Assembly: GCA_022803075.1 (NCBI GenBank)
Contig: JAFFTF010000012.1
Coordinates: 1-64,000, forward strand
Length of the DNA stretch: 64,000 nucleotides
Direction: 5' to 3'
Origin: Micrococcales bacterium 31B
Lineage (GTDB): Bacteria > Actinomycetota > Actinomycetes > Actinomycetales > Dermabacteraceae
In this document: positions 16,899 to 58,289 of the stretch, one piece after another
How the letters are laid out: the number at the start of each line of letters is the position of its first letter
Numbering within the stretch: the stretch's first letter is position 1
Program-made: the position numbers and the translations under genes
The notes under the pieces: generated by a model
Database searches by the model: none
What the model was told of the DNA's origin: nothing
The model's input: only the letters and a program-made list of their open reading frames with translations

Positions 16899-16914
16899 AT
16901 TGAAACGATTTAAT
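16899..16914. promoter_or_regulatory. LacI-type operator upstream of the rhamnose operon
   Basis: ATTGAAACGATTTAAT is a partial palindrome around a central CG, as in LacI/GalR-family sites. Its complement, TTAAATCGTTTCAAT, matches the site upstream of the ABC importer (TCAAATCGTTTGAAT at 58277) at 13 of 15 positions. It is also close to the perfect palindrome at 26571. It lies 83 bp upstream of the first gene of the rhamnose operon, so a repressor bound here could block transcription. Confidence 0.65.
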
Positions 16915-17068
16915 CACGGGCGCCGCGGCTCGTCAAGCAGGCACCACCGCGCGCGGCCCAGGCCGACGCCGCGCGTCTTAAGTGGAGCAGATTTGCAGCT
17001 GGCCGTTACGATGCTGAGTGAGACGCCGCCGCAAGGCGCGCCCCCATCGCCAGAAAGTTCGCCGAAGC

Positions 17069-17866
17069 ATGTCCTCCCCGATTCGCCGCGCCCGCGTCGC
17101 AACCGTCGCAGCGGCAGCCCTCGTGTCGCTCTCCGTGCTCGCGGCGTGCACGCCCTTGCACGCCCCCGACGAACGACTCCGGCAACCCAGCCTCTCCGGC
17201 GCCGACGCGAAGTCGATCTTGCGCGAGAGTTTCACAGACGTGACCGGCTATCACTGCACCGTCACGACGGCGCCCAAGGCCGCCGGCACCGACTTCGATG
17301 TCACCGTCTCCAACTACTCGAAGTCGAATCCGTCGAGCGGCTCGTATGAGTGGGTCGAAGACTACCTCTCGCACACCGTGACGTCGTATTGGGTAGGGGG
17401 CCGCGCGTACCGAGAGGCTCCCAATGGCGACTTTGGCCTGTACCCGACGAGTTTCGTGGACGACCGCGTCACCAGCGATCGCTTCAACTGGATCGCCAAC
17501 AACCTCACGTTCACGGTCACTCAACTTGAAGGCACAACCACGCTGTCGGCGACCAGCGCCACGCCGATCAACCGCGAAGCCCTCATCGAGGCGGTCTTGA
17601 TTGACGGCAGTCCGCGCGCCTCCACCCCAGAAATACAGCGGGCGCTGAACTCGTCCATCGACGTCACCGCGACGATCAACCTCGACAGCCGCGGCCACCT
17701 CGCGGCACAGAGTTTGACCGTCACGAAGGTGCCCCAAGAACTCGAACAACTGGTGGTGCTCGACCGGCGCGAGACCTGCGACTCCTACAATCGCGTGCAA
17801 CCCATTAGCGCCCCGAGCAACACCCTGCCCGAGACCGTCGTGCCGAGCGGCGACTCGCGCGTCTAG
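17069..17866 (+). CDS. Lipoprotein, paralogous CxxYN family, member 1
   Basis: 265 residues from the ATG at 17069. A lipoprotein signal ends in the lipobox LSVLAAC (Cys near residue 27), so the protein is probably anchored in the outer face of the membrane. The body shares a pattern with four other proteins in this window: an early Cys (TGYHC), a VSNYSKSNPSSG stretch, Trp-rich beta segments, and a late motif CDSYNRVQPISAP. The size and beta-rich pattern recall the LolA/LppX-like lipid-binding fold, but this is only an impression. The function is unknown. It is followed 104 bp later by a close relative on the same strand. Confidence 0.75.
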   Translation: MSSPIRRARVATVAAAALVSLSVLAACTPLHAPDERLRQPSLSGADAKSILRESFTDVTGYHCTVTTAPKAAGTDFDVTVSNYSKSNPSSGSYEWVEDYLSHTVTSYWVGGRAYREAPNGDFGLYPTSFVDDRVTSDRFNWIANNLTFTVTQLEGTTTLSATSATPINREALIEAVLIDGSPRASTPEIQRALNSSIDVTATINLDSRGHLAAQSLTVTKVPQELEQLVVLDRRETCDSYNRVQPISAPSNTLPETVVPSGDSRV

Positions 17867-17970
17867 CCCGCACGGGGCAGTTGTGCCCATCGCGGTTCGC
17901 CTCGGCTCGCGCGTACCCTGATGGCGTCCGGCGAGCACGGGGGCGTCGGACCACATCGTGGGAGAACACA

Positions 17971-18777
17971 ATGGGCACCAAGTTCAGCAGGGCCAGGGCG
18001 GTCGCCATGACGGTCGCAGTAGTCGCCTCGCTCGCGCTCACGGGCTGCACCAGTTTGCGAGAGAACCCGCTCGCGGCGAAGACCACGCTCACGGGCGCAG
18101 AGTTCAAGGGCCTATACCGAGCCAGCGTGGCCGAGGTCTCCGGCTTCACGTGCACCGAGCGCAGCGAACCAGCCGCGGGCGACGTTCGAATCGCGCTTCG
18201 CGTCAGCAACTTTGACATCGCCGACCCCAGCCTCGCCACCTACAAGCGCACGGTGACTCGCAACGGAGAAACCCGCAGTTCGTATTGGGGCAACCAGCAG
18301 CACTTCGTCGAGGGGGCACAGGGTCGGTTCGCGAGCGGCAAGGCCGCGTTCACGCCCGAGGAATGGATCGACACCTCCTTCGCCTGGCTCGACGACTCCG
18401 CGCAATTTAAGGTAACCCCCTCCGGGGACACGAATATCCTGACGGCCGACATGACCAATGCCGCTACCCGCGTGTCATTCGCGAGGCTGCTCCCCTCCGA
18501 GGCCGCGCTCGCCAAGCCCGCTCCCGGCGAGGCGGCGTACCCCTACCCGAACAACCCCACCGCCCTGCTGACGGGCCTCGGGCCACGGCTCACCCTGACC
18601 GGATCGTTCACCTTTACGAGTTCAGGCCACTTCGCAGCGACCCGCGTGACCTCCAATGCCGCGAGCATCTCGACGCTGCCCCTGCGCACGACGTATGCAC
18701 TGTCGTGCGGTAATTACAACCGGATCAAGAGCATCAGCCTGCCCGGCACGGGCGATCTGGAGACCATCTACGGGTAG
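17971..18777 (+). CDS. Lipoprotein, paralogous CxxYN family, member 2
   Basis: 268 residues from the ATG at 17971, preceded by GGGAGA. The lipobox LALTGC is near residue 26. It shares with member 1 the early Cys (SGFTCTERS), VSNFDIADPS, a SSYWGNQQHFVEGAQGRF stretch matching SYWVGGRAYREAPNGDF, and the C-terminal CGNYNRIKSISLPG. The two Cys residues are probably disulfide-bonded outside the cell. It is tandem with member 1 and ends at a strong terminator (18799), so the pair may be one transcription unit. Confidence 0.75.
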   Translation: MGTKFSRARAVAMTVAVVASLALTGCTSLRENPLAAKTTLTGAEFKGLYRASVAEVSGFTCTERSEPAAGDVRIALRVSNFDIADPSLATYKRTVTRNGETRSSYWGNQQHFVEGAQGRFASGKAAFTPEEWIDTSFAWLDDSAQFKVTPSGDTNILTADMTNAATRVSFARLLPSEAALAKPAPGEAAYPYPNNPTALLTGLGPRLTLTGSFTFTSSGHFAATRVTSNAASISTLPLRTTYALSCGNYNRIKSISLPGTGDLETIYG

Positions 18778-22801: not shown

Positions 22802-25117
22802 CTATGCCACCGGCACGGGGCTCTCGAATCGGTGCGCTCCGGTGCCCACGGTGCGCGCCGTGGCGTCCGGCAACATCACCTCGGCCGTAACACCCGCGGG
22901 CACGTCGCACGTGAGCGTGAAGCGGTCGCCGTCGAGGTCCCACCGCACCGAAATAACGCCGTGCGCGGTGTCGAGGCTCGTGGCGGCCCACGTCAGCCCC
23001 CCGCCCACCTGCGGGGCGATGCGAACGGACGCGTAGCCGGGCGCGCTGGCACTGAGGCCCCCGACCACCTTGTGCAGCCAGTCGGCGACCGCGCCGAGTG
23101 CGTAGTGGTTAAAGCTGGTCATCTCGCCGGGGTTGATGCTGCCGTCGGGGAGCATCGAATCCCAGCGCTCCCACACCGTGGTCGCGCCCATCGTGACGGG
23201 GTACAGCCACGACGGGCACTCGCGTTCGAGCAGCAGGCGATATGCGGCGTCCACGTGCCCCGTCGCGCTGAGCGCCCATGTGACATAGGGCGTGCCCGCG
23301 AAGCCGGTCGAGACGCGATAGTTGCGCTCGGCAACGATCTCGGCAAGGCGCTGGCCCGCGAAGGCGCGGCGCTGCGGCTCGTGGGCGGAGTCCACGATGT
23401 CGAAATGAATCGCGAGAGCGTACACCGTGGCGCAGTCGGAGCGCACGCGACCCTCGGCGTCGACGTAGTTCGCGAGAAAGTTGGCGCGCGCGACGTCGGC
23501 GATCTCGCTGAACTCGGCGGCCTCGGCCTTCAGGCCCAAAATCTCAGCGGCCTCGGAGACCTCCCGGGCGCTGCGCACGAGGCAGGCCGTCGCGACGACT
23601 CCCTTGTCGGCCTTCGCATCGGCCGGGTTGTGCGGCGAGGCGTCGGGGTCGAGCCAGTCACCGAACTGAAAATCGGCGTCCCACAGCCCGCTCGGCGAGA
23701 GCTTCGAGACGACTCGCCGCACGTGCGCAGCCATCGAGTCGAACTGGCGGGCGAGCAGGGCCGCATCGCCGTAGGTGCGGTAGAGCTCGAGCGTCACCCA
23801 CACGCTCGCGTCAGACCAGATGGCGGTCGTGTCGAGCTCGGGAAAGTCCTCGGGGGTCGGCATGAACTTCAAGACATCGGGCACGACCGCCGCCACGAAG
23901 CCGTCGGCGTCCGCCTGCTCGGCCGCGAGATTTGCGAGCCAGTTCCCGAGGAACCCCCGCACGTCATACAGGTATGCCGCCGTGGGCGCAAACACCGCGA
24001 TGTCGCCCGTCCAGCCGAGGCGCTCGTCGCGCTGCGGGCAGTCGGTGGGCACGTCAAGAAAGTTGCCGCGCAGCCCCCACACGATATTGCGGTGCAGCTG
24101 GTTCACGAGCTCGTCCGAGCATTCAAACGTACCGGTGCGGCGCATGTCGGAGTGCACCACGACCGCCTCAATATCGCCCAGGCCCAACTCTCCGGGCCAC
24201 CCGGTCACCTCGGCGTAGCGGAACCCGTGGAACGTGAGCGTCGGCTCGAAAAAGTCTTCGCCCCCGCTCAGGACGAAGCGATCGGTGCAGTCGGCAGTGC
24301 GCAGGGGCCGCACGCCGAGCTCGCCCGCCTCCAGCACCTCGGCGTGCCGCAGCACAATTTCGTGGCCGGCCGTGGCCGCGCCCGCGGGCACCGTGAAGCG
24401 GCACCAGCCGACGAGGTTCTGGCCGAAGTCGAGCACGGTCTTGCCGCTCGGGGTCGTCATGATCTCTCGGGCGGTCACGGCCTCGATGCGCCGCACGGGC
24501 GGCACCTCGAGTTCTGCCTGCGCGAACAGTTTGGCCTCGTCGAATACTTTCGTGTGGACGCCCGTCCACCCCGTTGACGCGTCGGCCGCCGTGGACCACC
24601 CGGGCAGTCGCCTGCGCGCGTCGATGGTTTGGCCGTCGTAGATCTGGTTGTCGGTGGTGTCGCTCGCGTGGGCCTCCCAGGTTTCATCGGTTTCGACGAT
24701 CTGTTGGGCGCCGTCCGCGAACGTGAGGGTGAGCCGCGCGTAGAAGGCCGGCTCGTCGGTGTAGAACTTGCCGCCGCCCGCCAGGAACCCGAGGCGTCCG
24801 TGCGCCCAGCCGTTGCCGAGGCGAGCCCCGATGCGGTGGCCCGCGCCGGCAGTGGTCTCGGTGCTGGTCTCGGTGCTGAGCAGGTGCGTGACGTCGAACG
24901 ACTGCAACCGCACGCGAAACTCATACGAATCCCAGCCGGGGTTGAACACGGTGTCGGTCGCGGGCCGGCCGTTGACCTCGGGTTCGTACAGGGCGAGGGC
25001 CGTGGCTTCGAGCACGGCGCGGGTGAGGTTTTCGCTCGGCTGATCGAGGGTGAAGACGGGGCTGCGCAGCAGGGGCGCGCCGTCGTGGAAGTCGTCTGCG
25101 GCGATGAGGCGGGTCAT
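22802..25117 (-). CDS. Alpha-L-rhamnosidase, glycoside hydrolase family 78
   Basis: A 771-residue GH78 protein that removes terminal alpha-L-rhamnose from glycosides such as flavonoid rutinosides or from pectic side chains. Domains in order: N-terminal beta-sandwich domains (about 1-320), an (alpha/alpha)6 barrel (about 325-690) with the conserved DCPQRDERLGWTGD and the late VWERWDSM that carries the catalytic base Glu, and a C-terminal beta domain. It has no signal peptide, so it acts inside the cell on imported glycosides. It lies 72 bp after a permease gene, which supports an uptake-then-hydrolysis route feeding the rhamnose operon. It is shorter than many GH78 enzymes (850-1000) because an N-terminal domain is absent. 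Confidence 0.93.
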   Translation of the reverse strand: MTRLIAADDFHDGAPLLRSPVFTLDQPSENLTRAVLEATALALYEPEVNGRPATDTVFNPGWDSYEFRVRLQSFDVTHLLSTETSTETTAGAGHRIGARLGNGWAHGRLGFLAGGGKFYTDEPAFYARLTLTFADGAQQIVETDETWEAHASDTTDNQIYDGQTIDARRRLPGWSTAADASTGWTGVHTKVFDEAKLFAQAELEVPPVRRIEAVTAREIMTTPSGKTVLDFGQNLVGWCRFTVPAGAATAGHEIVLRHAEVLEAGELGVRPLRTADCTDRFVLSGGEDFFEPTLTFHGFRYAEVTGWPGELGLGDIEAVVVHSDMRRTGTFECSDELVNQLHRNIVWGLRGNFLDVPTDCPQRDERLGWTGDIAVFAPTAAYLYDVRGFLGNWLANLAAEQADADGFVAAVVPDVLKFMPTPEDFPELDTTAIWSDASVWVTLELYRTYGDAALLARQFDSMAAHVRRVVSKLSPSGLWDADFQFGDWLDPDASPHNPADAKADKGVVATACLVRSAREVSEAAEILGLKAEAAEFSEIADVARANFLANYVDAEGRVRSDCATVYALAIHFDIVDSAHEPQRRAFAGQRLAEIVAERNYRVSTGFAGTPYVTWALSATGHVDAAYRLLLERECPSWLYPVTMGATTVWERWDSMLPDGSINPGEMTSFNHYALGAVADWLHKVVGGLSASAPGYASVRIAPQVGGGLTWAATSLDTAHGVISVRWDLDGDRFTLTCDVPAGVTAEVMLPDATARTVGTGAHRFESPVPVA

Positions 25118-25189
25118 AGAGGTCTCCTGAAGCGTGCGGGTGGCTGTATGGTTTCGGGGCGGTTTCGGGGGCAGGTACCGGTGCGGTCG

Positions 25190-26524
25190 CTATGCCTTCG
25201 CGGGGGCCGCTGGAACGGGGGCCGCTGGAACGGGGGTTGCGGTGCCGGGGAGGTCCGCGGCGTCCGGCTCATCGGCCCGCGGCACGCGCGCGATCCATAA
25301 GATGCCCAGCAGGCACGAGATCGCAACGGTGGCGATCAAGAACCCGTACATGACCTGCGGGCCGTAGTTCAAGATCTGGGGCGTCACCAGCGCGACTGCC
25401 GCCGCCACGAGCCGGGTGAACGCGATCGTGGTGCCCTGGGCCGTGGTGCGCACCGCGGTCGGGAACAGCTCTTGGCTCCACACCTTGTACATGGGCTCGC
25501 CTGCCATGGCACCGCCGATGGCGCCGATCACGCCGCCGATCGCGAGGGCCGCGACGCTGAAACCGAAGATCAGTGGCAGGGCCGTCGCGACGGTGACGAG
25601 CACCGAGCACGCCGCGAAGGCGACCATGCGGCGGCGCGAATCGACGAACCTGAACATGATGATCATGCCAATAAACGAGGCGCCGAAGCCCAGCAGGCCC
25701 ATCGTGGAGGCCGTGGCGACGTCGGAGCCTGCCACGTTCACGTAGATGTAGGTCGAGAATTGCCCGTTCGTGTTGGCGGCGATATTAGCGATGGCGTAGA
25801 ACAGGCCGGTGGCGAGGAGCGGCTTCGCGTAACGGCCCGTGAAGAGCTGCTTGACGCCGCTCCAGCTGAGGGCCTCGCTCGCGCCGCCCTGGCCCGACGT
25901 CGCCTGGTCTTTCAAGGCCTGCCACTGCGCGGATTCGGGGAGACGGAAGCGCAGCGCCAGCACGATCACGGCGACTATCGCGATATGTGCGTAAAGAATG
26001 CGAGCGCCCGTGGCGCCCTGCCCGCCGACTACGATGCCGAGCACCATGACGACGACGATGGCGATCATCCACAGGCCGTGCGAGATCGAGATCATCTTGC
26101 CGCGGATCTGCTCGGGAGACGACTCGGCGATCATCGCCATCGAGACGGGTAGGTCGGCGCCGCTCGCGAAACCCAGGAGGGCGATGCCCACGTAGAGCAA
26201 CAGGAGGTTCGGGGCGACCGTGAGCAGCGCCGCTCCGAGCAGCAGCAGCAGCACCATCGTGACAGTGAAGACGCGGCGGCGGCCGTAGGCGTCGCCGAGG
26301 CGACCGCCCGTGAACGCGCCCACGGCGATCATGACGGTGAGGAGCGCCGAGAGCTGGCCGATCTGCGCGTCGCTGATGCCCAGTGGCTCCTGAAACAGCA
26401 CGAGCGCGGTGCCCGTCGAGACGATGGCGGCTGCGTCGAGGTAGGAGGCCATGCCGCTGATGAACGCGGTTTTAAGGGCGTTCTTGCGCACGACGAGGTC
26501 GATGGCGGGGGCTTGCGTTGACAT
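25190..26524 (-). CDS. MFS permease, probable rhamnoside/sugar importer
   Basis: 444 residues, 12 transmembrane helices, with GGRLGDAYGRRR in the TM2-3 loop and SPEQIRGKMISISHG-type sequence in the central loop. This is the sugar-porter style of the major facilitator superfamily. It precedes the GH78 gene on the same strand, and a perfect LacI-type palindrome lies 47 bp before its start. The likely cargo is an alpha-rhamnosylated glycoside, inferred from context. The C-terminal tail contains a short Pro/Ala repeat (PVPAAPVPAAPAKA) from a 15-bp DNA duplication. Confidence 0.83.
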   Translation of the reverse strand: MSTQAPAIDLVVRKNALKTAFISGMASYLDAAAIVSTGTALVLFQEPLGISDAQIGQLSALLTVMIAVGAFTGGRLGDAYGRRRVFTVTMVLLLLLGAALLTVAPNLLLLYVGIALLGFASGADLPVSMAMIAESSPEQIRGKMISISHGLWMIAIVVVMVLGIVVGGQGATGARILYAHIAIVAVIVLALRFRLPESAQWQALKDQATSGQGGASEALSWSGVKQLFTGRYAKPLLATGLFYAIANIAANTNGQFSTYIYVNVAGSDVATASTMGLLGFGASFIGMIIMFRFVDSRRRMVAFAACSVLVTVATALPLIFGFSVAALAIGGVIGAIGGAMAGEPMYKVWSQELFPTAVRTTAQGTTIAFTRLVAAAVALVTPQILNYGPQVMYGFLIATVAISCLLGILWIARVPRADEPDAADLPGTATPVPAAPVPAAPAKA

Positions 26525-26570
26525 GATGCGGATTCATCCTTGAATCGGGGCGCGCTTCGATGCACACGAT

Positions 26571-26584
26571 TTGAAAGGTTTCAA
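26571..26584. promoter_or_regulatory. LacI-type operator upstream of the permease-rhamnosidase operon
   Basis: TTGAAAGGTTTCAA is a perfect 6+2+6 palindrome in the usual LacI/GalR form. It lies 47 bp upstream of the permease start, where bound repressor would overlap the promoter. It is one of four similar sites in the window. Confidence 0.7.
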
Positions 26585-32604: not shown

Positions 32605-32712
32605 GCTGAAGCGTAATCCGCGGCACATCCGGCCGGATGGGCCCCCAACCCCGATGACCCTCAGCCAGCCTTGTACACTCAGATAACTCAAAGTAGCGGA
32701 GGAGTACACGAC

Positions 32713-33753
32713 ATGACCCAGGGCCCCGGCGGAGCGAGCGTCAAGGATGTCGCGGCGCTCGCGGGCGTGTCGATAGGCACCGTATCTAACGTGCTGAACC
32801 ACCCCGAGCGCGTCAGCGACTCCACCCGCGAGCGCGTACACATGGCCATTCACGAGCTCGGCTTCATTCGCAACGACGCGGCCCGACAATTACGCAGCGG
32901 CTCGAGCACCACCCTGGGTCTCGTGCTGTTCGACATCTCCAACCCCTTCTTCTCCGAGCTGGCTAGGCAATGCTGCCGCGCCGCCGCCGAGGCCGGCTAC
33001 GACGTGTTCATCGCGAGTTCGGACCACGACGACGCCGTCGAGGCGCGGCAGGTGCAGCAGTTCGAGGCGCAGCGCGTCGCGGGCCTGCTGATCACCCCCC
33101 TCGATGAAACCCTGCCCGAACTGCGCCATGTGCGCGACCGCGGCCTGCCGATCGTGCTGATCGACCGCGACGACAAGCACAACGAGTTCTCGGCCGTGGC
33201 TGTCGACGACGTTCACGGCGGCTACCTCGCCGTTCAACACCTGCTGGGCCTCGGCCTGCGCAATATCGCGTTCGTGGGCGGCCCCATGCGATTGCAGCAG
33301 GTGGCCGACCGCTACCAGGGGGCGGCCCAGGCCGTCTCCGAGGTTCCCGATGCGACCCTCGAGGTCATCGCGACCGATGACCTCACGGTGCTACAGGGGC
33401 GCGCCGCCGGCGAACGCATCGTGGCCCGCGGCGAGGCGCGGCGACCCGACGGCATCTTCGCCACCAACGACCTGCTGAGCGTGGGCCTCCTGCAGTCGTT
33501 TACGATGCTCGGCGCGCTGCGGGTGCCCGAGGACATCGCGATCATCGGCTACGACGACATCGAGTTCGCGAGCGCCACGGTGGTGCCCCTCAGTTCTGTG
33601 CGCCAGCCCGTCGAGAAGATCGCGCAGCACGCCGTCGAGGCGATACTGCGCGAGACCAAGACGGCGCGCGAAGATCGCTCTCCGCAGCGCATCGTGCTCA
33701 AGCCCGAACTCGTGGTGCGCCGCTCGACCGTCGGCGACGCGGCTACGCAGTGA
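32713..33753 (+). CDS. LacI-family transcriptional regulator
   Basis: 346 residues from the ATG at 32713, with GGAGGAG upstream. The N-terminal LacI helix-turn-helix is residues about 9-55 (SVKDVAALAGVSIGTVSNVL, NHPERVSDSTRERV, hinge LGFIRNDAARQLRSG). The rest is the periplasmic-binding-protein-like ligand domain that binds a sugar effector. It is the only classical LacI protein in the window, so it is the best candidate for the four LacI-type sites at 16899, 26571, 38448 and 58277. Rhamnose or a rhamnoside as effector is inference. I see no clear copy of the site before its own gene. Confidence 0.9.
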   Translation: MTQGPGGASVKDVAALAGVSIGTVSNVLNHPERVSDSTRERVHMAIHELGFIRNDAARQLRSGSSTTLGLVLFDISNPFFSELARQCCRAAAEAGYDVFIASSDHDDAVEARQVQQFEAQRVAGLLITPLDETLPELRHVRDRGLPIVLIDRDDKHNEFSAVAVDDVHGGYLAVQHLLGLGLRNIAFVGGPMRLQQVADRYQGAAQAVSEVPDATLEVIATDDLTVLQGRAAGERIVARGEARRPDGIFATNDLLSVGLLQSFTMLGALRVPEDIAIIGYDDIEFASATVVPLSSVRQPVEKIAQHAVEAILRETKTAREDRSPQRIVLKPELVVRRSTVGDAATQ

Positions 33754-38447: not shown

Positions 38448-38460
38448 TCAATCGATTTGA
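38448..38460. promoter_or_regulatory. LacI-type operator upstream of the Gfo/Idh pair
   Basis: TCAATCGATTTGA, complement TCAAATCGATTGA, is very close to TCAAATCGTTTGA at 58277. A further inverted element follows: CTCAATC (38447-38453) with GATTGAG (38491-38497). It lies about 155 bp upstream of the first oxidoreductase gene, in the divergent region shared with the aldo/keto reductase. Confidence 0.55.
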
Positions 38461-38613: not shown

Positions 38614-39591
38614 ATGACAACTGCCCTGCGCATCGCCACGCTCAGCTTCTGGCACGTCCACGCGGGAGACTACTCGCGCGACACCCTGAACCACCCGGGC
38701 ACCGAACTGGTCGCCGTCTGGGACGACGACCAAGCACGCGGCGAGGCAGGAGCGAAGGAGTTCGGCGCCGAATACACGAACGACCTCGACGGCCTGCTCG
38801 CGCGCGAAGACCTCGACGGCGTCATCATCACGACCGAGACCCGCCTGCACACCGAGGTAATGCTGAAGGCCATCGCCGCGGGCAAGCACGTCTTCACCGA
38901 GAAGATCCTCGCCCCCACCGTCGCCGAATGCGAGCAGATCATCGCCGCTGCCCGCGCAAAGGGCGTCGCCCTGACGGTCTCGCTCCCCCGCCTGTACGAC
39001 GCGTACACGCAGGTCATCAAGGGTATTCTCGAGGCCGGCAGCCTCGGCGACATCTCGTACTCGCGCGTGCGGCTCGCCCACGCCGGCTCCACCTTCGGCT
39101 GGCTGCCCGACCGCTTCTACGACGCCACCGACGCCATCGGCGGCGCCCTCACCGACCTTGGCTGCCACCCCGTCTACCTCACTCAGCTCATTCTCGGCCT
39201 CGAACCACAGCGCGTCAGCGCGACCTACTCCGATTTCAGCGGAGTCGGCGTCGACGACAACTCGGTCGTCACCGCCCAGTACGCGAGCGGCGCGATCGGC
39301 GTGATCGAGGCCGGCTTTGTGCACTCCAACAGCCCGTTCTCCATTGAGGTGTACGGCACGAGCGGCGGCGTGCGCTACAGCGAAGACCAAGACTTCGTGT
39401 GGCTGCAAACCGGCGAAGGCACCCAGCAGTTGCCGCTCGGCGACCGCCTGCCCACCGCCTACGAGCAGTGGGTCACCAGCATCCACGACGGCACGCTCCC
39501 CGAGGACAACCTCGAGCGCGCCACTCACCTCACGCGACTCGTTGTCGCGGCCAACGCGGCCGCAGCCAGCGGCAGCCAGGTCGACTACTAA
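38614..39591 (+). CDS. Gfo/Idh/MocA-family oxidoreductase, atypical N-terminus
   Basis: A 325-residue NAD(P)-dependent sugar/polyol dehydrogenase relative. The usual GxGxxG loop is replaced by SFWHVHAGDY (residues about 11-20), and the EKP motif is EKI. Both changes occur in a known sub-branch. The C-terminal alpha/beta domain has DLGCHPVYLTQLILG with the active-site His. With the second oxidoreductase 57 bp downstream it forms a two-gene operon. Likely substrates are sugars or inositols, not determinable here. Confidence 0.85.
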   Translation: MTTALRIATLSFWHVHAGDYSRDTLNHPGTELVAVWDDDQARGEAGAKEFGAEYTNDLDGLLAREDLDGVIITTETRLHTEVMLKAIAAGKHVFTEKILAPTVAECEQIIAAARAKGVALTVSLPRLYDAYTQVIKGILEAGSLGDISYSRVRLAHAGSTFGWLPDRFYDATDAIGGALTDLGCHPVYLTQLILGLEPQRVSATYSDFSGVGVDDNSVVTAQYASGAIGVIEAGFVHSNSPFSIEVYGTSGGVRYSEDQDFVWLQTGEGTQQLPLGDRLPTAYEQWVTSIHDGTLPEDNLERATHLTRLVVAANAAAASGSQVDY

Positions 39592-39592
39592 A

Positions 39593-39607
39593 CCACCCGC
39601 GCGTCCG
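39593..39607 (+). repeat. Dispersed 15-mer CCACCCGCGCGTCCG, between the two oxidoreductase genes
   Basis: Exact class B copy starting two bases after the stop of the first oxidoreductase gene, in the 57-bp gap before the second. Confidence 0.7.
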
Positions 39608-39648
39608 CAAAAAATGCCGACCGCGCCCCCACTCTCGAAGGAAAACCC

Positions 39649-40695
39649 ATGACCCTCAAAGTTGGCATTATCGGAATCGGCGGCATCTCGGGCACCCACG
39701 TGCCCGGCTGGAACGCCTCGGAGCACGCGGAGATTGCGGGCGCCGCCGACGTGAACCCCGCGGCCCTCGAAAAGTTCGGTGCGGAGCAGGGCATCACGAA
39801 GCTCTACAGCGACGCGAACGACCTCATCAACGATCCCGACATCGACATCATCGACGTGTGCACGCCCAACGGCATGCACGCCAAGTTCTCGATCGCGGCG
39901 CTCAACGCTGGCAAGCATGTGCTGTGCGAGAAGCCGCTCGCACCCACCCCGGGCGAGATCGAGCAGATGATCGAGGCCCGCGATAAGAGCGGCAAGATGC
40001 TCATGACGGCGCAGCACTTTCGCTACACCGACACGGCCATGGCCCTCAAGCAGGAGATCGAGACGGGAGTGCTCGGCGACATCTACCACGCCCGCGCGTG
40101 GATGCTGCGCCGCGCGGCCCTGCCCGCCTGGCCCGGCATCATGTACAAGAAGAACTCGTTCGGCGGCCCGTGCATCGACATCGGCGTGCACATTCTCGAC
40201 CTGACCCTGTGGATGATGGGCAATCCCAAGCCCGTGAGCGTCTCGGGCACCGCCAAGACCGCCCTCGCCCTGCGCGACGGCGCGTGGACGAAGTGGGGCG
40301 GCGATATTCCGAAAGACATGGACAACGAGGACTTCGCCGCGGCGTTCGTGCGCTTCGAAAACGGCGCGACCCTCATGCTCGAGGTCTCGTGGCTGCTGCA
40401 TCACGACACCGACGGCGAAGACATGCGCATGTGGCTGTACGGTGACAAGGGTGGCTCGCTGTGGCCCAAGAACGAGATTCTCTCGGCGTCGGCGACGCAT
40501 CACCAGCTGTACAACACGCAGTTGAAGCACGCGCCGACCGTGATTGAAGCGCACGCCGCCGAGTGCGTCGACTTCGCCGCCGCCATCGCGGAGGGCCGCC
40601 CCTCCCCCGTGCCCGCCGAGCAATCGCTGCAGGTCATGAGCATTCTCGACGGCATCTACCGCTCGCAGGCGGAGGGTCGCGAGATTCAGCTGTAA
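39649..40695 (+). CDS. Gfo/Idh/MocA-family oxidoreductase
   Basis: A 348-residue enzyme with a canonical nucleotide loop GIGGISGTH (residues 9-17), CEKPLAP (the catalytic-lysine EKP motif), and GPCIDIGVHILDLTLWMMG with active-site Asp/His. It is typical of glucose-fructose oxidoreductase/inositol dehydrogenase relatives. The paired arrangement of two such enzymes often means successive oxidation and reduction at neighbouring positions of one sugar derivative. Confidence 0.9.
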   Translation: MTLKVGIIGIGGISGTHVPGWNASEHAEIAGAADVNPAALEKFGAEQGITKLYSDANDLINDPDIDIIDVCTPNGMHAKFSIAALNAGKHVLCEKPLAPTPGEIEQMIEARDKSGKMLMTAQHFRYTDTAMALKQEIETGVLGDIYHARAWMLRRAALPAWPGIMYKKNSFGGPCIDIGVHILDLTLWMMGNPKPVSVSGTAKTALALRDGAWTKWGGDIPKDMDNEDFAAAFVRFENGATLMLEVSWLLHHDTDGEDMRMWLYGDKGGSLWPKNEILSASATHHQLYNTQLKHAPTVIEAHAAECVDFAAAIAEGRPSPVPAEQSLQVMSILDGIYRSQAEGREIQL

Positions 40696-43905: not shown

Positions 43906-43909
43906 CATC

Positions 43910-45873: not shown

Positions 45874-45923
45874 ACCATTCGGGTGCGCCGCATGCCTCGC
45901 GGCGCACCCCACCAAGGAATCTC

Positions 45924-46742: not shown

Positions 46743-46743
46743 C

Positions 46744-47511
46744 GTGTCGAGCGCAACCGCCGTTCCCCCGCCCTCCGGCGGCGCGACACCACTCGGGCCC
46801 GGCGAGACGGGTGCCGACGCAGGGAACGGTGGCGGCGCGGCGTCCACCCTCACCGAACGCCTACTCGACTACGTGGCCTCGCAGGGAACCCGCCCCGGCG
46901 AGAAACTGCCCGGCGAACGCAAACTCGCCGAACATTTGGGCGTCGCACGACACGTGCTGCGCGAATCGCTGCGAACCCTCCACCTCCTCGGGTTCGTGGA
47001 TGTGCGCCAGGGCGATGGCACCTACTGGAAGAATTCCCCCGCGACGGCCATGCCGCGCACCATCGAATGGCAGATGATCACCGAATCCGCCTCGATGACG
47101 CACCTCATTGAGGCGCGCGCCGAGATCGAAGTTCTCGTATGTACCCTGGCTGCGACCCGCGCAAGCGAAACAGACATGGCACAAATACGTCAGCGCTTCG
47201 AATTCATGGTGCTCGCCGCCGACGCGGGAGACGTTGACCTGTACTCGCGCTCCGACATTAGCTTTCACCTTGCGATCGCCAAAGCCGCAGGCAACAGTGT
47301 CCTCGAAGGTGTACTCACGAGCATTAGGAGCCTCTCCGCACGGTGGACCGAGAGCGTCCTCCAGAACATTGAACTTAGTGATTCGCTGGCCGTGCACGAA
47401 CCCATCATGAATGCGCTCTCCTCGCGCGACCCCCTGGCTGCCAGCCTCGCCATGCGCGCCCACATGGACGCCGCGGCCGCCAACCTCCTGGCCGCCACCA
47501 GCGAAGACTAG
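46744..47511 (+). CDS. FadR-subfamily GntR transcriptional regulator
   Basis: 255 residues from GTG 46744, with GGAGG at 46732-46736. After a Pro/Gly-rich N-terminus, the winged helix-turn-helix is residues about 37-100 (LPGERKLAEHLGVARHVLRE, GFVDVRQGDGTYW). An all-helical FCD ligand domain follows, with metal-ligand positions such as DISFHLAIAKAAGN. It is embedded in the operon it most likely represses through TGGTTGACCA at 42285 and 42372. The ligand is probably an intermediate acid of the pathway. Confidence 0.9.
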   Translation: MSSATAVPPPSGGATPLGPGETGADAGNGGGAASTLTERLLDYVASQGTRPGEKLPGERKLAEHLGVARHVLRESLRTLHLLGFVDVRQGDGTYWKNSPATAMPRTIEWQMITESASMTHLIEARAEIEVLVCTLAATRASETDMAQIRQRFEFMVLAADAGDVDLYSRSDISFHLAIAKAAGNSVLEGVLTSIRSLSARWTESVLQNIELSDSLAVHEPIMNALSSRDPLAASLAMRAHMDAAAANLLAATSED

Positions 47512-47562
47512 GCCCTCGCGCCGCACGCCAACCCAGACACCACGCCAACCCCAGGACCAGCC

Positions 47563-52101: not shown

Positions 52102-53814
52102 CTACACGTGCTTCAGCTTCAGCACCGTCTGGTTCGGGTTGTTGAAGTCACCCGGGCGCGGGAAGTAATCCGCCTCGCCGGGCACCGGCCAGCCGGTCCA
52201 GTTCTTCGTCGAGCTCATGATGCCGCCGCCGCCGCTCATGATCGGCACGATCGGCGCCTCGTCCACGAACGCCTGCTGAATGATCAAGATATTCGCCTTG
52301 ATCGTGGCGTCGTCGTCGCGCGGGGTCTTCTGCAGCGTTTGCAGGGCCGCCTCGGCGGGGTCGGGCATGCGCCACAATCCCTGGTTGCCGTAGCCGGCCT
52401 TCTGCTGCTTCTCGCCGAGGTTCGCGTGGCTGTAGCCCTGGTACGCGTTGTACGGCGAACCGTTCAGGCAGCACGTCCAGATCGAGATCGCGTAGTCGTG
52501 AATCGAATCCTGGAACACCTTGTCGGCGACGCCCGTGTAGGGAATCTCGAGGCCCAACTTCTCCTTCCACTGCTGCGCGATCTGCGGGCCCGCCACGACG
52601 TCGACCTGCTGGCTGAGGTTCACCATCAGCTTCAGCGGGTACTCCTTGCCGTCCTTCGAGAGGTTACCCGTCGCCGAGACCGACCAGCCGGCCGCCTCGA
52701 GCTCCGACTTCACGGTGGCGGCGTCGCGCGCCTTCATCGACGTGTTGTAGTCGGGCAGCAAGAATTCCTTGTAGAGCACGGGGTCGAGGCCCGCCGTGTT
52801 CGGAACGTTGTAACCGAGACCCGCGGCCTTCTGAATCGGATCCATGTCGAGCACGTCGCGCAGCGCCTTGCGCACCGCGATGTCGTTGGTCGCGTCCATC
52901 GTGCAGCCGAACAGAATGCCGCGCGCCGAACCGTCGGGCCAGTAGTTGTATTGGTTCGTGTCAGCCGCCGCCACGAACGTGGTTTCGACGCCGGGGGCGC
53001 CGCCCGCCGCCCAGTCGATCTCGCCCTTCGTGAGCTTCGACTGCACGTTGCCCGGGGTGCCCGCGGGGATCACCTTGATCTTCTTCAGGCCCTCGAACGT
53101 GCCGCCCCAGTAATCGTCGCGCAGCTCGAGATCGATCTGCTGCGTCTGGAACTTCACGAGCTTAGCGGGGCCCGTGCCGACGGGCTCCTTGTCGATGTAC
53201 TTGCCGCGCTCGCCCACGCTCTTGTAGATGTGCTCGGGGTAGATCGGGTAGTACAGGCTCATGTTGGTGTCCTGCTGAAAACTGGGCGTGCGGTACTCGA
53301 CCACGACGGTGTAGTCGTCGGTCTTGTACACGGGCTTCGCAATGAACGCCGAGTTGTCGGGGTCAGGCTGATCGAGAGGAATCGGCGTGCCGTACGTCGC
53401 GTTGTACGAGTAGACCACGTCGTCGGCGGTGAAGTCTTCGCCGTCGCTCCACTTCACGCCCTGGCGCAGCTTGTACGTCACCTTCATGCCGTCGGCCGAA
53501 TACTCCATGCTCTCGGCGAGCACGGGCTCGAGCTTGCCGCCGTTGGCCGCCGACACGCGAAACAGCGTCTCGTGGAACAGGCCGCAGATCGGCGCGGCAC
53601 CGATGCCGTTGCCGCCGTTGGCGTTGAAGTTGTAAATGAACTGGTTGGTGGCGCCCGCGTCGGCGCCAATGACGAGGGTGTCACCCGATGCCGCGGCATT
53701 GCCGCCCACCGCGCTGCCCATCGCGTCGCCGCAGGCTGTGAGGCCAAGCGCGGCGATGGCCGAGGCTCCGGCGGCCGAGAAGGCAATAAACCTACGGCGC
53801 GATACTTCCGTCAT
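52102..53814 (-). CDS. ABC transporter substrate-binding lipoprotein, SBP_bac_5 family
   Basis: 570 residues from the ATG at 53814 (AAGGAGAACATC before it). The signal contains both an SRRRFIAF twin-arginine-like stretch and the lipobox LGLTAC (Cys28). The body is an oligopeptide/dipeptide-type binding protein: VTYKLRQGVKWSDGEDFTAD, DDVVYSYNATYG, then a C-terminal lobe with KANILIIQQAFVDEAPIVPI. In Actinobacteria and Thermotogae this family also binds plant oligosaccharides. The operator upstream of the operon favours a glycoside or oligosaccharide, without proof. It is the last gene of its operon. Confidence 0.9.
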   Translation of the reverse strand: MTEVSRRRFIAFSAAGASAIAALGLTACGDAMGSAVGGNAAASGDTLVIGADAGATNQFIYNFNANGGNGIGAAPICGLFHETLFRVSAANGGKLEPVLAESMEYSADGMKVTYKLRQGVKWSDGEDFTADDVVYSYNATYGTPIPLDQPDPDNSAFIAKPVYKTDDYTVVVEYRTPSFQQDTNMSLYYPIYPEHIYKSVGERGKYIDKEPVGTGPAKLVKFQTQQIDLELRDDYWGGTFEGLKKIKVIPAGTPGNVQSKLTKGEIDWAAGGAPGVETTFVAAADTNQYNYWPDGSARGILFGCTMDATNDIAVRKALRDVLDMDPIQKAAGLGYNVPNTAGLDPVLYKEFLLPDYNTSMKARDAATVKSELEAAGWSVSATGNLSKDGKEYPLKLMVNLSQQVDVVAGPQIAQQWKEKLGLEIPYTGVADKVFQDSIHDYAISIWTCCLNGSPYNAYQGYSHANLGEKQQKAGYGNQGLWRMPDPAEAALQTLQKTPRDDDATIKANILIIQQAFVDEAPIVPIMSGGGGIMSSTKNWTGWPVPGEADYFPRPGDFNNPNQTVLKLKHV

Positions 53815-53875
53815 GATGTTCTCCTTGCTTCTGGGGCAACAGCTGTGTCGCCCAGTGGGGGGATCTGCGAGTGAG

Positions 53876-55033
53876 TTAGGGGGCTTGGCGAGCGGACGCT
53901 CCGGTGCTGGCGCTGGCAGCGTCGGCACCCGAGGTAACGTGTGACTGCGCCGTGCCGCGCAGGTCGTCTTCACTGACCAGGAAGCACGCCGCGCTGCGAC
54001 GCCCCACCGTGACCATCGGAGGCGGCGCCGTGTGGCACTTCTCGACGGCGACGGGGCACCGGTCGGCGAACTTGCAGCCCGCGTAGCGACGACCGTTGTC
54101 GACCGGCGCGGCCAGCACCACCTCGCGGCGCTGCGCCCCCGGATGCCCGCGATACTTTGCGGGGTCGGGGGCCGCCGCGATGAGCTGCTGCGTGTAGGGG
54201 TGCAGCGGGTTCGCGATGATGGCCTCGGTGGGGCCGGTCTCGACCGTCGAACCGCCGTACATCACGTGAATGTTGTCGCTCAGGTAACGGGCCGACGCGA
54301 TGTCGTGCGTGATGTAGAGCATCGCGAGGCCGCGGTCGCGGCGCAGGTCAGAGAGCAGATTCAGCACGTCGAGGCGAATCGACGCGTCGAGCATCGAGGT
54401 GGGCTCGTCGGCGAGCAGCACGGCCGGGTCGAGCGCGAGCGACCTCGCGATGGCGATGCGCTGGCGCTGCCCGCCCGAGAAGTCGGCGGGAAACCGATCG
54501 ATGTACCGCTCGGCGGGGGTAAGGTTCACCGTTTCGAGCAGTTCGCGTGTGCGCTTCTCGATCGCGGCGCGGCCCGTCACGATCTTGTGAATCGTGAGGG
54601 CGCGCCCCAGAATGTAGCGCACCTTCTTCAGGCTGTTGAGCGACGCGAACGGGTCTTGAAAGATCAGCTGCACGTGCCGGTAGTACTCGCGCGCGGCCCG
54701 CCCCTTGGGGTTGCCCACGGGCTTGCCGTCGAAGTAGATCTCGCCGCTCGTGGGCGTGTACATGAGCGAAAACATGCGCGCCATCGTGGTTTTGCCGCTG
54801 CCCGACTCGCCCACCAGCGCCGTGATCTCGCCGCGCATGAGCGTGAGCGACACGTCGTCGACCGCGTAGATGGGGTGGCCGCTTTGTTTAAAGTGCATGC
54901 TCACGTTACGGGCCTCGAGCACGGGCACGCCAGCCTGCCCGGCGTCACCCCGGGGCGCAGCCAACGGGCGCGAACGGCCCGACCCGGCCACGGCTGCGTC
55001 CGACCCCTGAGGGCCGCGAGAAAACAGCGCCAT
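53876..55033 (-). CDS. ABC transporter ATP-binding protein, OppF/DppF type
   Basis: 385 residues from the ATG at 55033, overlapping the preceding stop (TAATG). Walker A is GESGSGKTTM, the Q-loop LIFQDPFASLN, the signature FSGGQRQRIAIARSL and Walker B VLLADEPTSMLD. The C-terminal oligopeptide-transporter extension carries a Cys cluster (CKFADRCPVAVEKC) that may bind an iron-sulfur or metal centre. It pairs with the next ATPase to drive import. Confidence 0.93.
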   Translation of the reverse strand: MALFSRGPQGSDAAVAGSGRSRPLAAPRGDAGQAGVPVLEARNVSMHFKQSGHPIYAVDDVSLTLMRGEITALVGESGSGKTTMARMFSLMYTPTSGEIYFDGKPVGNPKGRAAREYYRHVQLIFQDPFASLNSLKKVRYILGRALTIHKIVTGRAAIEKRTRELLETVNLTPAERYIDRFPADFSGGQRQRIAIARSLALDPAVLLADEPTSMLDASIRLDVLNLLSDLRRDRGLAMLYITHDIASARYLSDNIHVMYGGSTVETGPTEAIIANPLHPYTQQLIAAAPDPAKYRGHPGAQRREVVLAAPVDNGRRYAGCKFADRCPVAVEKCHTAPPPMVTVGRRSAACFLVSEDDLRGTAQSHVTSGADAASASTGASARQAP

Positions 55034-56112
55034 TACTTGGCCTCCTTGCGATTCGCCGCGGCGACGTGGCACGCGACCTCGCCGAGTTCGGTCTTCACGA
55101 GCGCGGGGCGTTCGGTCTCGCAGCGGTCGATCTTGACCTTGCAGCGGGGCGCGAACGCGCAGCCCGGCGGCAGGTTTTGCAGATCGGGCGGCGAGCCGGG
55201 GATGCCCGAGAGGCGCCGGGGCTCCTCGTGCAGGGGCGGGAACGCCTCGCGCAAGCCCCGCGTGTACGGGTGCTCCGCATTTTGGTAGAGCTCGGCGGGC
55301 GTGCCGATCTCGACGATGCGGCCGCCGTACATGATCGCGATGCGGTGGCTAATCTCGAGCAGCAGCGACAGGTCGTGCGTGACGAACACGATCGCGAAGC
55401 CGAGCTTTTCTTGCAGCTCGAGCACCTGCGTGAGAATCGAGCGCTGCATGATCACGTCGACGGCGGTGGTGGGCTCGTCCATGAACACGAGGTCGGGCTG
55501 GCACGCCATCGACAGCGCGATCAGGGCGCGCTGCTGCATTCCACCCGAGAGCTCGAACGGGTACGCGTCGACGCGGTGACCCGGGATCCCCACCATGGTG
55601 AGCAGTTCCTTCGCGAACTCGCGCGCGGTCTGCTTCGTGGCGCTCGGCTGGTGCGCGAGAATCGCGTCGACAAACTGCGCTCCCACCTTCATGACCGGGT
55701 TGAGGCACGCCATCGCGGACTGCATCACGATCGAGATTTTGTCCCACCGATACTTCACCAGCTGCGTCTCGCTGAGCCGCGCGAGGTCGACCGTCTCCCC
55801 ATCGGTGGGGGTGAACAGCACCTCGCCGTTGCTCGTGACGGCTGGGGGCCGCTGCAGCCGGGCGAGGGCCGCGAGCAGCGTCGATTTGCCCGAGGCGCTC
55901 TCCCCCGCGACGCCGAGAATCTCGCCCCGGCGCAGCGTGAGGCTGACGTCGCGGCACGCGGGCACGTTGCCGGTCTCGGTGATGTAGTCGACCGAGACGT
56001 TCTTGGCCTCCAACAAAATGGGCCGCTGATCGAGCGGTATGCCCCAGGTTTCGGGGCGGGCCGCGGCGTCGGGGTTCGGGCCGGACGCGCGGGTGGCGCT
56101 TTGGGTTGTCAT
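55033..56112 (-). CDS. ABC transporter ATP-binding protein, OppD/DppD type
   Basis: 359 residues from the ATG at 56112, overlapping the permease stop by ATGA. Walker A is GESASGKSTL, the signature ELSGGMQQRALIALS and Walker B LVFMDEPTTAVD. The C-terminal CAFAPRCKVKIDRC cluster is shared with its partner. The Q-loop reads VMQSAMACLNP. With the OppF-type protein it forms the heterodimeric motor. Confidence 0.93.
   Translation of the reverse strand: MTTQSATRASGPNPDAAARPETWGIPLDQRPILLEAKNVSVDYITETGNVPACRDVSLTLRRGEILGVAGESASGKSTLLAALARLQRPPAVTSNGEVLFTPTDGETVDLARLSETQLVKYRWDKISIVMQSAMACLNPVMKVGAQFVDAILAHQPSATKQTAREFAKELLTMVGIPGHRVDAYPFELSGGMQQRALIALSMACQPDLVFMDEPTTAVDVIMQRSILTQVLELQEKLGFAIVFVTHDLSLLLEISHRIAIMYGGRIVEIGTPAELYQNAEHPYTRGLREAFPPLHEEPRRLSGIPGSPPDLQNLPPGCAFAPRCKVKIDRCETERPALVKTELGEVACHVAAANRKEAK
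56082..56096 (-). repeat. Dispersed 15-mer CCACCCGCGCGTCCG, copy at the start of an ABC ATPase gene
   Basis: Exact class B copy on the minus strand within the first 30 bases of the OppD-type gene, encoding part of ATRASGP. Confidence 0.7.
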
Positions 56113-57029
56113 GCCGAGACCTTCTGCCCTTCGTTTTTGAGCTGCAGTGCGCGCTTGTGCATGAAGATGCGCATGAGTCGCATGCGCTTGCTGGAGAGCG
56201 CGGGGTTGGTGATTTCGTCGAGGCCGAAGTTGACCATCGTGGTGGAGAACCCGATGAGGGCGAGGCAGATGCCGGGGGGCACGATCCACCACCATTGGCC
56301 GTTGAACAGGGCGTTCTGCGAGTCGGCGTAGTTCATCATGAGGCCCCACGACGGCTCGGAGGCGTTGCCGATACCGAGGAACGCGATGGCGGACTGCTGC
56401 ACGACGCCCGCGCCGATGAGCGTCAGGAACATGGGCGAGAGCACGCCGAGCAGGTGAGGCACCACCTCGACGAACACGATGCGCCAGCGGCTCTCGCCGA
56501 TGGTGTGCAGGGCCGCCGTGAAGTCGCGGCCCGAGAGGCTCATGGCCTGGGCGCGGATCAAGCGGGCGCCGCCCGACCATTCGAGCAGGCCGATGATGAG
56601 CGAAACCATGATCCAGTTCGCGTTCTGCAGCAGGCCCGCGACGATGAACAGCACCGCGAACGAGGGCATGTTCTGCACGACGAGGATCACGCCGTTGATG
56701 AAGCGGTCGACGGCGCCACCGATGAAGCCGGCGGCGGTGCCCATGATGACCGCGAGCAGCGTGCCGACGAGCGCCGAGCCGATGCCGACCAGCATGGATT
56801 GGCGCGCACCGTACAGCAGCCAGCTGAAGACGTCTTGGCCGCTCGACGTGGTGCCGAGCCAGTGGGCGGCGCTCGGGCCGGCGCCCATGTGTTCGGTGTC
56901 GAACTCCATGGGGCCCCAGCCGATCACGGAGTCGGTGAACCAGGGGCCGAAGATCGCCATGATGGCGAAGATGCCGAGAATGACGAGGCCGATGAGGACC
57001 TTGGGCGAGGTGAGAAAGCGTTTCCACAT
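56109..57029 (-). CDS. ABC transporter permease, OppC/DppC type
   Basis: 306 residues, six transmembrane helices. The EAA-type coupling loop GGARLIRAQAMSLSGRDFTA is near residue 155. The N-terminal SPKVLIGLVILGIFAIMAIF helix and the conserved VVPHLLGVLSPMFLTLIGAG stretch are characteristic. It is 2 bp downstream of the partner permease gene. Confidence 0.93.
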   Translation of the reverse strand: MWKRFLTSPKVLIGLVILGIFAIMAIFGPWFTDSVIGWGPMEFDTEHMGAGPSAAHWLGTTSSGQDVFSWLLYGARQSMLVGIGSALVGTLLAVIMGTAAGFIGGAVDRFINGVILVVQNMPSFAVLFIVAGLLQNANWIMVSLIIGLLEWSGGARLIRAQAMSLSGRDFTAALHTIGESRWRIVFVEVVPHLLGVLSPMFLTLIGAGVVQQSAIAFLGIGNASEPSWGLMMNYADSQNALFNGQWWWIVPPGICLALIGFSTTMVNFGLDEITNPALSSKRMRLMRIFMHKRALQLKNEGQKVSA

Positions 57030-57031
57030 GA

Positions 57032-58156
57032 TTAGCGCTCCCGGGTGCGGGGGTCGAGGAACACGTACACCGAGTCGGCGATGAAGTTAAACACGAGCAC
57101 CGCGAAGATAATCATGAGCATGACGGCCTGCAGCATGGGATAGTCGCGGGCACCCTGGGCGGCGGTGAGCACGGAGCCGAGGCCGGGGTACGTGAACACG
57201 CCCTCGGCGAGAATAACGGCGGTCAGGCTGCCGCCGATGGCCTGCGCGAGGCCGGTGAAGTTCGGCAGCATGGCGTTGCGCGCGGCGTAGCGGTTGCGCA
57301 CGCGGCGCGTCGAGAGGCCCTTCGCGCGGGCGAGCTGCACGTAGTCTTCGGTCACGGTGGTGATCATCATGTTGCGCATGGTGAACATCCAGCCCGTGAA
57401 GCCCTCGATGATCAGCACGAACAACGGCAGGATCGAGTAGATCAGCACGCTCATGAGGAAGATCGGGTTGGTGAAGCTGATGTCGAGGTCGCCGTTGTAG
57501 GCACCCTGGCTGGGCAGCCACCCGTTGTGGTAGCCGACCCACCACACGAGGATGATGCCGACGTAGAACGAGGGAATCGACCTGAAGAACATGCTGAGCG
57601 GCGTGATCCAGGTGTCGAGTCGGCCGCCAGGCTTCCAGCCGAGCCGGGCTCCCGCGACGGTGCCGATGATCCAGCCGACAATCACCGACGTGAGCGAGAG
57701 GTAGAGGGTCCAGCCGAGCGCGTTGCCGATGATCGTGCTGACCTTCTCGGGGTAGTACTGCACTGAGATACCGAAGTCGCCCTGCAAGATCTGCCACACG
57801 TAGCGGACGAACGCGATCAGCACGTTCTCGTTGGGGTCACCGTAACGGTCGTAGATGGCCTGGCGTTGGATAGGCGAAATGCCGCCCTCCTTGGCGATGA
57901 TCGATTGGATCATCTGCTCGGCCGGGTCGCCCGGGATGAACCGTGGCAGCGCAAAGTTCAAGATCAGCGAGATCACGCCGACGATGATGTACGTGACCAG
58001 GCGCTTGCCGAGATAGCGCAGATTGCGTCGCAGGGCGACGTTCTTGGGCTGCGGCACCTTCTCGGCCTGGCGGCTCAGCACGTCGACCATGCTGCGCTGG
58101 CTTTCGCCTGCGGGCTCGCCGCGCTGGGGTTTCCCCGCTGGGCTTGACGCGCTCAC
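57032..58156 (-). CDS. ABC transporter permease, OppB/DppB type
   Basis: 374 residues with a hydrophilic N-terminal extension of about 50 residues, longer than usual. The first helix region is KRLVTYIIVGVISLILNFAL followed by PRFIPGDPAEQ (the family's PGDP motif). The coupling loop is DYVQLARAKGLSTRRVRNRY near residue 275. It is the first gene of the operon. A LacI-type palindrome lies 121 bp upstream. Confidence 0.93.
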   Translation of the reverse strand: MSASSPAGKPQRGEPAGESQRSMVDVLSRQAEKVPQPKNVALRRNLRYLGKRLVTYIIVGVISLILNFALPRFIPGDPAEQMIQSIIAKEGGISPIQRQAIYDRYGDPNENVLIAFVRYVWQILQGDFGISVQYYPEKVSTIIGNALGWTLYLSLTSVIVGWIIGTVAGARLGWKPGGRLDTWITPLSMFFRSIPSFYVGIILVWWVGYHNGWLPSQGAYNGDLDISFTNPIFLMSVLIYSILPLFVLIIEGFTGWMFTMRNMMITTVTEDYVQLARAKGLSTRRVRNRYAARNAMLPNFTGLAQAIGGSLTAVILAEGVFTYPGLGSVLTAAQGARDYPMLQAVMLMIIFAVLVFNFIADSVYVFLDPRTRER

Positions 58157-58276
58157 GTGACCTCCCTTGGACAGTGGTTGGTGGCCCGTCCCCCGCGCGT
58201 TCGACGGCGAAAGCGCGGGGAATGGGCGGCGGATGACTGGTGGCGATTCGACTCGGCGCGGCCTTGCAGCATTTAG

Positions 58277-58289
58277 TCAAATCGTTTGA
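58277..58289. promoter_or_regulatory. LacI-type operator upstream of the ABC importer operon
   Basis: TCAAATCGTTTGA has perfect 5-bp arms around TCG. It closely matches the complement of the rhamnose-operon site and the site at 38448. It lies 121 bp before the first permease gene, in an AT-rich patch that probably contains the promoter. Confidence 0.65.

Follow-up and report, generated by a model that had tools for sequence, protein, structure and literature searches.

The stretch of DNA analysed here (the window) comprises 64,000 nucleotides of Micrococcales bacterium 31B, contig JAFFTF010000012.1, and holds four similar LacI-type boxes (sites 1 to 4), one upstream of each of four transport or catabolic units. 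A preliminary description of this DNA had located the boxes, called them close variants of one consensus and named the units downstream, and this much was borne out: the boxes are present and as similar as claimed, with 13 of 15 bases identical between 16899 and 58277, and Pfam identified a rhamnose operon, a major facilitator superfamily (MFS) permease with a GH78 rhamnosidase, two Gfo/Idh oxidoreductases and an importer of the Opp (peptide) type behind them (Table 1). Its further proposal, that all four units form a single regulon, holds in part. Matrix, gene linkage and recognition helix assign RhaR type to the first two sites and to the LacI protein at 32671, whereas the matrix scores and the promoters of relatives set sites 3 and 4 apart, and by these sequence comparisons the four sites are split into two classes. 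We consider it highly probable that the LacI protein at 32671 (LacI 32671) is the RhaR controlling the rhamnose operon through site 1 and the permease + GH78 operon through site 2, and that sites 3 and 4 represent a second box belonging to another regulator.

Table 1. Boxes, genes and operons of the window discussed in the text
Feature	Position	Strand	Basis or remark
Site 1, predicted RhaR-type operator TTGAAACGATTTAA	16900..16913	+	about 84 bp upstream of the rhamnose operon; matrix rank 1
Site 2, predicted RhaR-type operator variant TTGAAAGGTTTCAA	26571..26584	+	47 bp upstream of MFS permease + GH78; matrix rank 2
LacI-family regulator, putative RhaR orthologue	32671..33753	+	LacI helix-turn-helix and periplasmic-binding domains
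Site 3 TCAATCGATTTGA	38448..38460	+	154 bp upstream of Gfo1; not RhaR-type
Site 4 TCAAACGATTTGA	58277..58289	-	121 bp upstream of the OppB open frame; not RhaR-type
Rhamnose operon, six genes	9292..16816	-	Pfam, NCBIfam
MFS porter (RhaY-like; MFS1), first gene of the rhamnose operon	15464-16816	-	Pfam
RhaM	15057-15467	-	Pfam
RhaI	13853-15019	-	Pfam; NCBIfam above cut-off
Alpha/beta hydrolase of the rhamnose operon	12846-14159	-	Pfam
RhaEW	10792-12849	-	Pfam; NCBIfam above cut-off
RhaB-like kinase	9292-10782	-	Pfam; NCBIfam best match below cut-off
Permease + GH78 operon	22802..26524	-	Pfam
Second MFS permease (MFS2)	25190-26524	-	Pfam
GH78 alpha-L-rhamnosidase	22802-25117	-	Pfam
Two Gfo/Idh/MocA oxidoreductases	38614..40695	+	38614-39591 (Gfo1) and 39649-40695; Pfam
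Opp-type importer, five genes	52102..58156	-	Pfam for OppB, D, F and A; OppC by homology and order
OppB	57032-58156	-	Pfam
OppC	56109-57029	-	homology and gene order
OppD	about 55033-56106	-	Pfam
OppF	53876-55072	-	Pfam
SBP_bac_5 solute-binding protein (OppA)	52102-53973	-	Pfam

Resemblance among the four boxes

Counted against the consensus of the preliminary description, TNAAATCGTTTSAAT, the boxes carry no mismatch at 16899 and 58277, two at 38446 and three at 26571. With up to three mismatches allowed, the window contains eight matches to TNAAATCGTTTSAAT where 1.27 are expected, and none of 100 shuffles reached eight, although the excess is partly circular because the consensus was derived from these very sites. 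A pattern search of the whole genome (3.93 Mb, 31 contigs) again returned more matches at this threshold than the reversed control (102 versus 57), but with such numbers TNAAATCGTTTSAAT is unselective. Since AT-rich, CG-centred boxes look alike across regulators in a high-GC genome, identity at 12 to 13 of 15 bases is insufficient to unite operons into one regulon. The description had also pointed to the only classical LacI protein as the regulator; LacI 32671 is indeed the only one among the window proteins scanned, but 25 LacI-type DNA-binding (helix-turn-helix) domains occur genome-wide, so that this argument says little by itself and an independent test was needed.

Sites 1 and 2 and LacI 32671

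In the rha clusters of relatives, boxes of the types TTGAGTCGTTTCAA and TTGAAACGACTCAA precede RhaI, MFS porters, RhaM and GH78. From 45 such listed boxes, 35 were taken into a RhaR matrix (20 rha loci from 19 other genomes, own genome excluded), and ten were omitted by hand under no fixed rule, namely four of the TTGAAACGTGTAAA type and those at L298 7460, L306 82, L311 11511, L313 6496, and L314 8227 and 8299. The lowest score among the 35 training boxes was 17.8. Scanning the window ranked site 1 first (20.9) and site 2 second (19.2), the next position scoring 12.9, and a matrix of all 45 boxes left both ranks unchanged (20.9 and 20.7; next 12.4). In 386,028 bases of rha loci the 35-box matrix found 38 positions of at least 17, most of them boxes from its own training; 379,020 bases of Opp/Gfo loci contained none. 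Over 60 Markov resamples of the window the mean maximum was 11.9, and among all 60 a single position reached 19. The pattern TTGAAWCGWTTCAA with at most one mismatch occurs at four places in the genome, two of which are sites 1 and 2; of the others, C2:573888 overlaps a predicted open-frame start, and around C29:1801 no clear gene is seen. The exact 14-mer of site 1 is also found upstream of a LacI homologue in locus L152, and the site 2 box, read on the other strand as TTGAAACCTTTCAA, recurs exactly upstream of homologues of LacI and an ATP-binding cassette (ABC) ATPase in the rha loci L087, L094, L123 and L147, so that this GG/CC-centred operator variant recurs in other actinobacteria.

LacI 32671 combines a LacI-type helix-turn-helix with a periplasmic-binding sensor (Pfam PF00356, PF13377 and PF00532), and homologues at E ≤ 1e-50 were found in 50 of 98 genomes, own genome included, in a comparison set holding no other species of its genus. 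Among the 18 relatives having an MFS1 homologue, 16 carry a homologue of LacI 32671 within 18 kb on the same contig, and the remaining two (G038 and G046) have the two genes on separate contigs. A LacI homologue was present in 19 of 20 fetched rhamnose/LacI regions (19 genomes), which had partly been selected through matches to LacI 32671, and in each of these 19 one LacI gene matched LacI 32671 (L033) better than any other of the 25 own LacI proteins. LacI homologues of at least 180 bits were further found in 67 of 80 named RhaEW loci, and 66 of these 67 have a box of at least 17 somewhere in the locus. The recognition helix, SIGTVSNVLN in LacI 32671 (motif SxGTVSNVLN), is nearly invariant among homologues at E ≤ 1e-40 taken one per locus from 86 fetched loci (G13 in 85, T14 in 86, V15 in 86, S16 in 86, N17 in 83, V18 in 85 and N20 in 86), and no other of the 25 own LacI domains carries the complete GTVSNVLN. 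With site type, gene linkage and helix as the basis, LacI 32671 is the predicted RhaR of this genome, and in sites 1 and 2 we see its probable operators, of the actinobacterial LacI-type RhaR kind.

Several observations weigh against this assignment. In choosing the training boxes, up to two mismatches were allowed to consensus strings whose arms read TTGA/TCAA, a choice biased towards arms of this type, and one of the 60 Markov resamples scored 20.6. In the own genome, where the matrix scan covered 287,013 bases of other loci picked around pattern matches, one box reached 18.6 at C29:1801, with no clear gene beside it. One of the 67 named loci bearing LacI has no box of at least 17, and 7 of the 13 lacking a LacI homologue of at least 180 bits still have one. 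Site 2 is centred on GG instead of CG, the LacI 32671 gene lies 16 kb away from the rha operon, and no strong RhaR-like box was found upstream of this gene itself. Finally, the promoters of sites 1 and 4 share a match at 12 of 13 bases, which would allow a shared regulator.

On the reading we prefer, RhaR (LacI 32671) would most likely repress two operons of the window when rhamnose or a rhamnose catabolite is lacking, through one operator each, site 1 serving the operon for rhamnose uptake and catabolism and site 2 that for the permease and alpha-L-rhamnosidase; binding, repression and inducer we infer from the family. The rhamnose repressor would thus be assigned among 25 LacI proteins, with two predicted operators named.

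Around these operons, the mutarotase of the rhamnose operon had its best NCBIfam match below the cut-off, and homologues of MFS2, GH78 and LacI were found grouped together in relatives, for example in L303-L305. Site 2 is overlapped at 26560-26574 by an additional box-like sequence, which reads TCAAATCGTGTGCAT on the minus strand. Elsewhere in the genome, the box TTGAAACGATTTAT (L279 14797; G000:C13:322796), nearly identical to site 1 and scoring 15.2, under the training minimum, stands about 120 bp before a putative sugar ABC importer operon, which makes it a candidate further RhaR target.

Sites 3 and 4, the Opp importer and the Gfo/Idh pair

The RhaR matrix gave site 3 a score of 0.9 (rank 32) and site 4 a score of 3.2 (rank 16), and with all 45 boxes they ranked 48th and 30th. 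Their arms follow TCAA-N5-TTGA, in contrast to TGA-N6-TCA in RhaR boxes; at arm position 3 both carry C, a base absent there from all 45 boxes, the 35 training boxes having G throughout. Nor are they even palindromes with a central CG, since they span 13 bp and agree with a CG-centred arrangement at 4 to 5 of 8 half-site positions as judged by eye. In relatives, we inspected 450 bases upstream of the homologues of OppB (the best 12 of 29 relatives' loci) and of Gfo1 (29), and a RhaR box of at least 17 preceded none of the 12 (top score 13.8) and none of the 29 (top score 6.1). Neither the matrix nor these promoters therefore lend support to the suggestion of the preliminary description that the importer and the two dehydrogenases serve rhamnoside use. 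Sites 3 and 4 do not appear to be RhaR operators and look like a different switch; Opp and Gfo are probably not under RhaR.

The two sites are identical to each other at 12 of 13 bases on the appropriate strands, and the exact TCAAWCGATTTGA occurs in the genome at sites 3 and 4 only; an exact match has at most two mismatches to the pattern searched, and all seven such places were listed. The chances are about even that the resemblance is fortuitous or reflects two different regulators. Among 300 intergenic pairs of the window, a match at 12 of 13 is seen twice, between the promoters of sites 3 and 4 and between those of sites 1 and 4, and one at 11 of 13 in 11 pairs, which places the resemblance in the tail of the distribution, not far beyond it, and a TCAA-type box at up to two mismatches is absent from all 41 orthologous promoters (the best 12 of OppB and 29 of Gfo1). 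In counting the TCAA-type and TTAASCGCTWAA background, the count stops at the first strand, so that the exact site 4 appears as a three-mismatch match on the plus strand. Mere chance is, however, made less attractive by the finding that the only two exact copies in the genome both stand in promoters of one window, while of the six one-mismatch places among the matches listed (at least six exist), three lie inside open frames (C23:252919, C29:117924 and C2:307910), two at the starts of unrelated open frames (C7:33594 and C1:551777) and one, C2:482272, between two genes read as unrelated to sugar use.

Less probable, though still a possibility, is that Opp and Gfo make up a separate small regulon whose regulator is not RhaR but perhaps a protein among the other 24 of LacI type, and that, since in relatives the LacI-like box TTAASCGCTWAA serves this pair, the box changed while the pairing was kept. 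Besides the near identity and exclusiveness of sites 3 and 4, the promoters of relatives speak for it. The LacI-like box TTAASCGCTWAA, at up to two mismatches, stands upstream of 10 of the best 12 OppB homologues, twice and 18-19 bp apart in five of these ten promoters, and upstream of 6 of 29 Gfo1 homologues; its background is 25 matches in 379,020 bases of Opp/Gfo loci versus 5 in 386,028 bases of rha loci. The exact decamer AGCGGTTAAG was found 17 times in 12 relatives, 11 of them upstream of OppB or Gfo1. Against it, the decamer was itself taken from these promoters and its other six places do not exceed the reversed control (12), the six Gfo1 cases may be one event because their promoters are almost the same, and of the six relatives having both an OppB from these 12 and a Gfo1 locus, TTAASCGCTWAA precedes OppB and Gfo1 in three (G009, G035 and G036) but OppB only in the other three (G017, G028 and G029). 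In addition, odd palindromes as at sites 3 and 4 were found for 4% of LacI regulators in the survey text of PMC4052901, and tblastn with the 25 own LacI proteins detected no LacI gene in ten fetched Opp loci. In some relatives a common regulator of importer and dehydrogenase is thus plausible, and in the window the two units may share one that acts through another box. Rather unlikely, in our view, is a conserved regulon of these two operons, directed at some oligosaccharide or glycoside, in which the class of operator was exchanged (TCAAWCGATTTGA here, TTAASCGCTWAA in relatives) with the pairing retained.

It is very improbable that RhaR governs all four operons as one regulon, binding sites 3 and 4 at lower affinity and placing Opp and Gfo under rhamnose control: the 13 of 15 identity of sites 1 and 4, the place of their promoters among the top two of the 300 intergenic pairs and the gathering of all four sites in one 64 kb window favour it, but are opposed by the matrix scores so far below the training minimum, the C at arm position 3 and the lack of RhaR boxes before the OppB and Gfo1 homologues.

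Returning to the reading with RhaR at sites 1 and 2 and a second box at sites 3 and 4, the latter would be read by another regulator, perhaps tying the Opp importer to the two Gfo/Idh dehydrogenases, and several candidates were considered. The open frame 49439-50677 (+), between the Gfo and Opp genes, encodes a DeoR-type winged helix-turn-helix fused to a LacI-type sensor (Pfam HTH_DeoR and Peripla_BP_3); its homologues, present in 20 of 98 genomes including the own, lie away from the best 12 OppB loci, and by coordinate comparison one is near a Gfo1 homologue in G003 only (5 kb), which leaves it as a candidate only. On the opposite side of site 3 from the Gfo/Idh pair lies a divergent aldo/keto reductase (AKR). 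As no site 3-type box (at most three mismatches, 450 bp) was found upstream of 29 of 29 AKR homologues (the best 29 of 66 relatives with a match), site 3 was assigned to Gfo1, and the XRE regulator adjoining the AKR gene was rejected as its reader. A clue from autoregulation was also sought, and TCAAWCGATTTGA at up to two mismatches is absent from the 3 kb locus of every one of the 25 own LacI domains. In the titles and abstract openings listed, the literature offered no fitting regulon of Opp and LacI in Actinobacteria.

A few further observations concern these genes and boxes. A weaker TCAA-type box, TCAATCAAACTGA (three mismatches), lies at 38484-38496, about 36 bp from site 3, and is possibly a tandem operator. 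The Opp gene order was conserved in all ten fetched loci of relatives, and neither Gfo/Idh oxidoreductase reached an NCBIfam cut-off. Several relatives (L269, L271, L272, L274 and L275) have a conserved leader, GTAAGTCCTGCGGGCA...CCCTGGATCGTGAGGA, ahead of the Gfo1 start, which the window does not have; an RNA element or a small open frame might account for it. A binding-protein gene of G029 (L432) is preceded by a AGCGGTTAAG, with a LacI gene at a distance of about 4.7 kb. The own LacI protein L048 (C13:233051) has tandem TTCAACCGGTTTAA boxes of its own, three mismatches from site 4; these two facing, CCGG-centred boxes (L294 about 8204-8290; G000:C13:233215-233251) stand directly before L048 and a putative ABC sugar importer, and regulator and importer are likely an autoregulated unit. 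Between the Gfo and Opp genes, 42388-48936 (+) forms one run encoding an MFS transporter, an alpha/beta hydrolase, a cupin, an HpcH/HpaI aldolase, an FCD-type GntR regulator and an SBD_N/NBD_C kinase-like protein, probably a sugar-acid catabolic operon.

Comparison with known LacI-type regulons

On a rhamnose regulator of Brachybacterium, the titles and abstract openings listed held nothing fitting. For Actinomycetales, a LacI-type RhaR co-regulating genes for rhamnose and rhamno-oligosaccharides was predicted in 2013 (Rodionova et al., PMC3870299), and according to the text of that work the regulon includes RhaY-type porters and rhamnosidases. In a survey of LacI regulons, even palindromes account for 1251 of 1303 motifs and are centred mostly on CG, and over 75% of the sites are found at 140-30 bp from the start codon (PMC4052901). 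Sites 1 and 2 agree with the latter description as even palindromes located 84 and 47 bp from the start codon, although site 2 departs from the usual CG by its GG centre, and sites 3 and 4 (TCAA-N5-TTGA) belong to the odd palindromes counted there for 4% of regulators. With the Actinomycetales RhaR regulon the window shares a LacI-type regulator linked to RhaEW, an RhaY-type MFS porter and alpha-L-rhamnosidases, and, compared with the text description, palindromic LacI-type operators. It differs in that the regulator gene lies off the operon, one operator is GG/CC-centred and GH78 has a second MFS permease as its partner (PMC3870299). By its sequence features, the rhamnose half of the window is a predicted regulon of the RhaR type already described, here with a new member.

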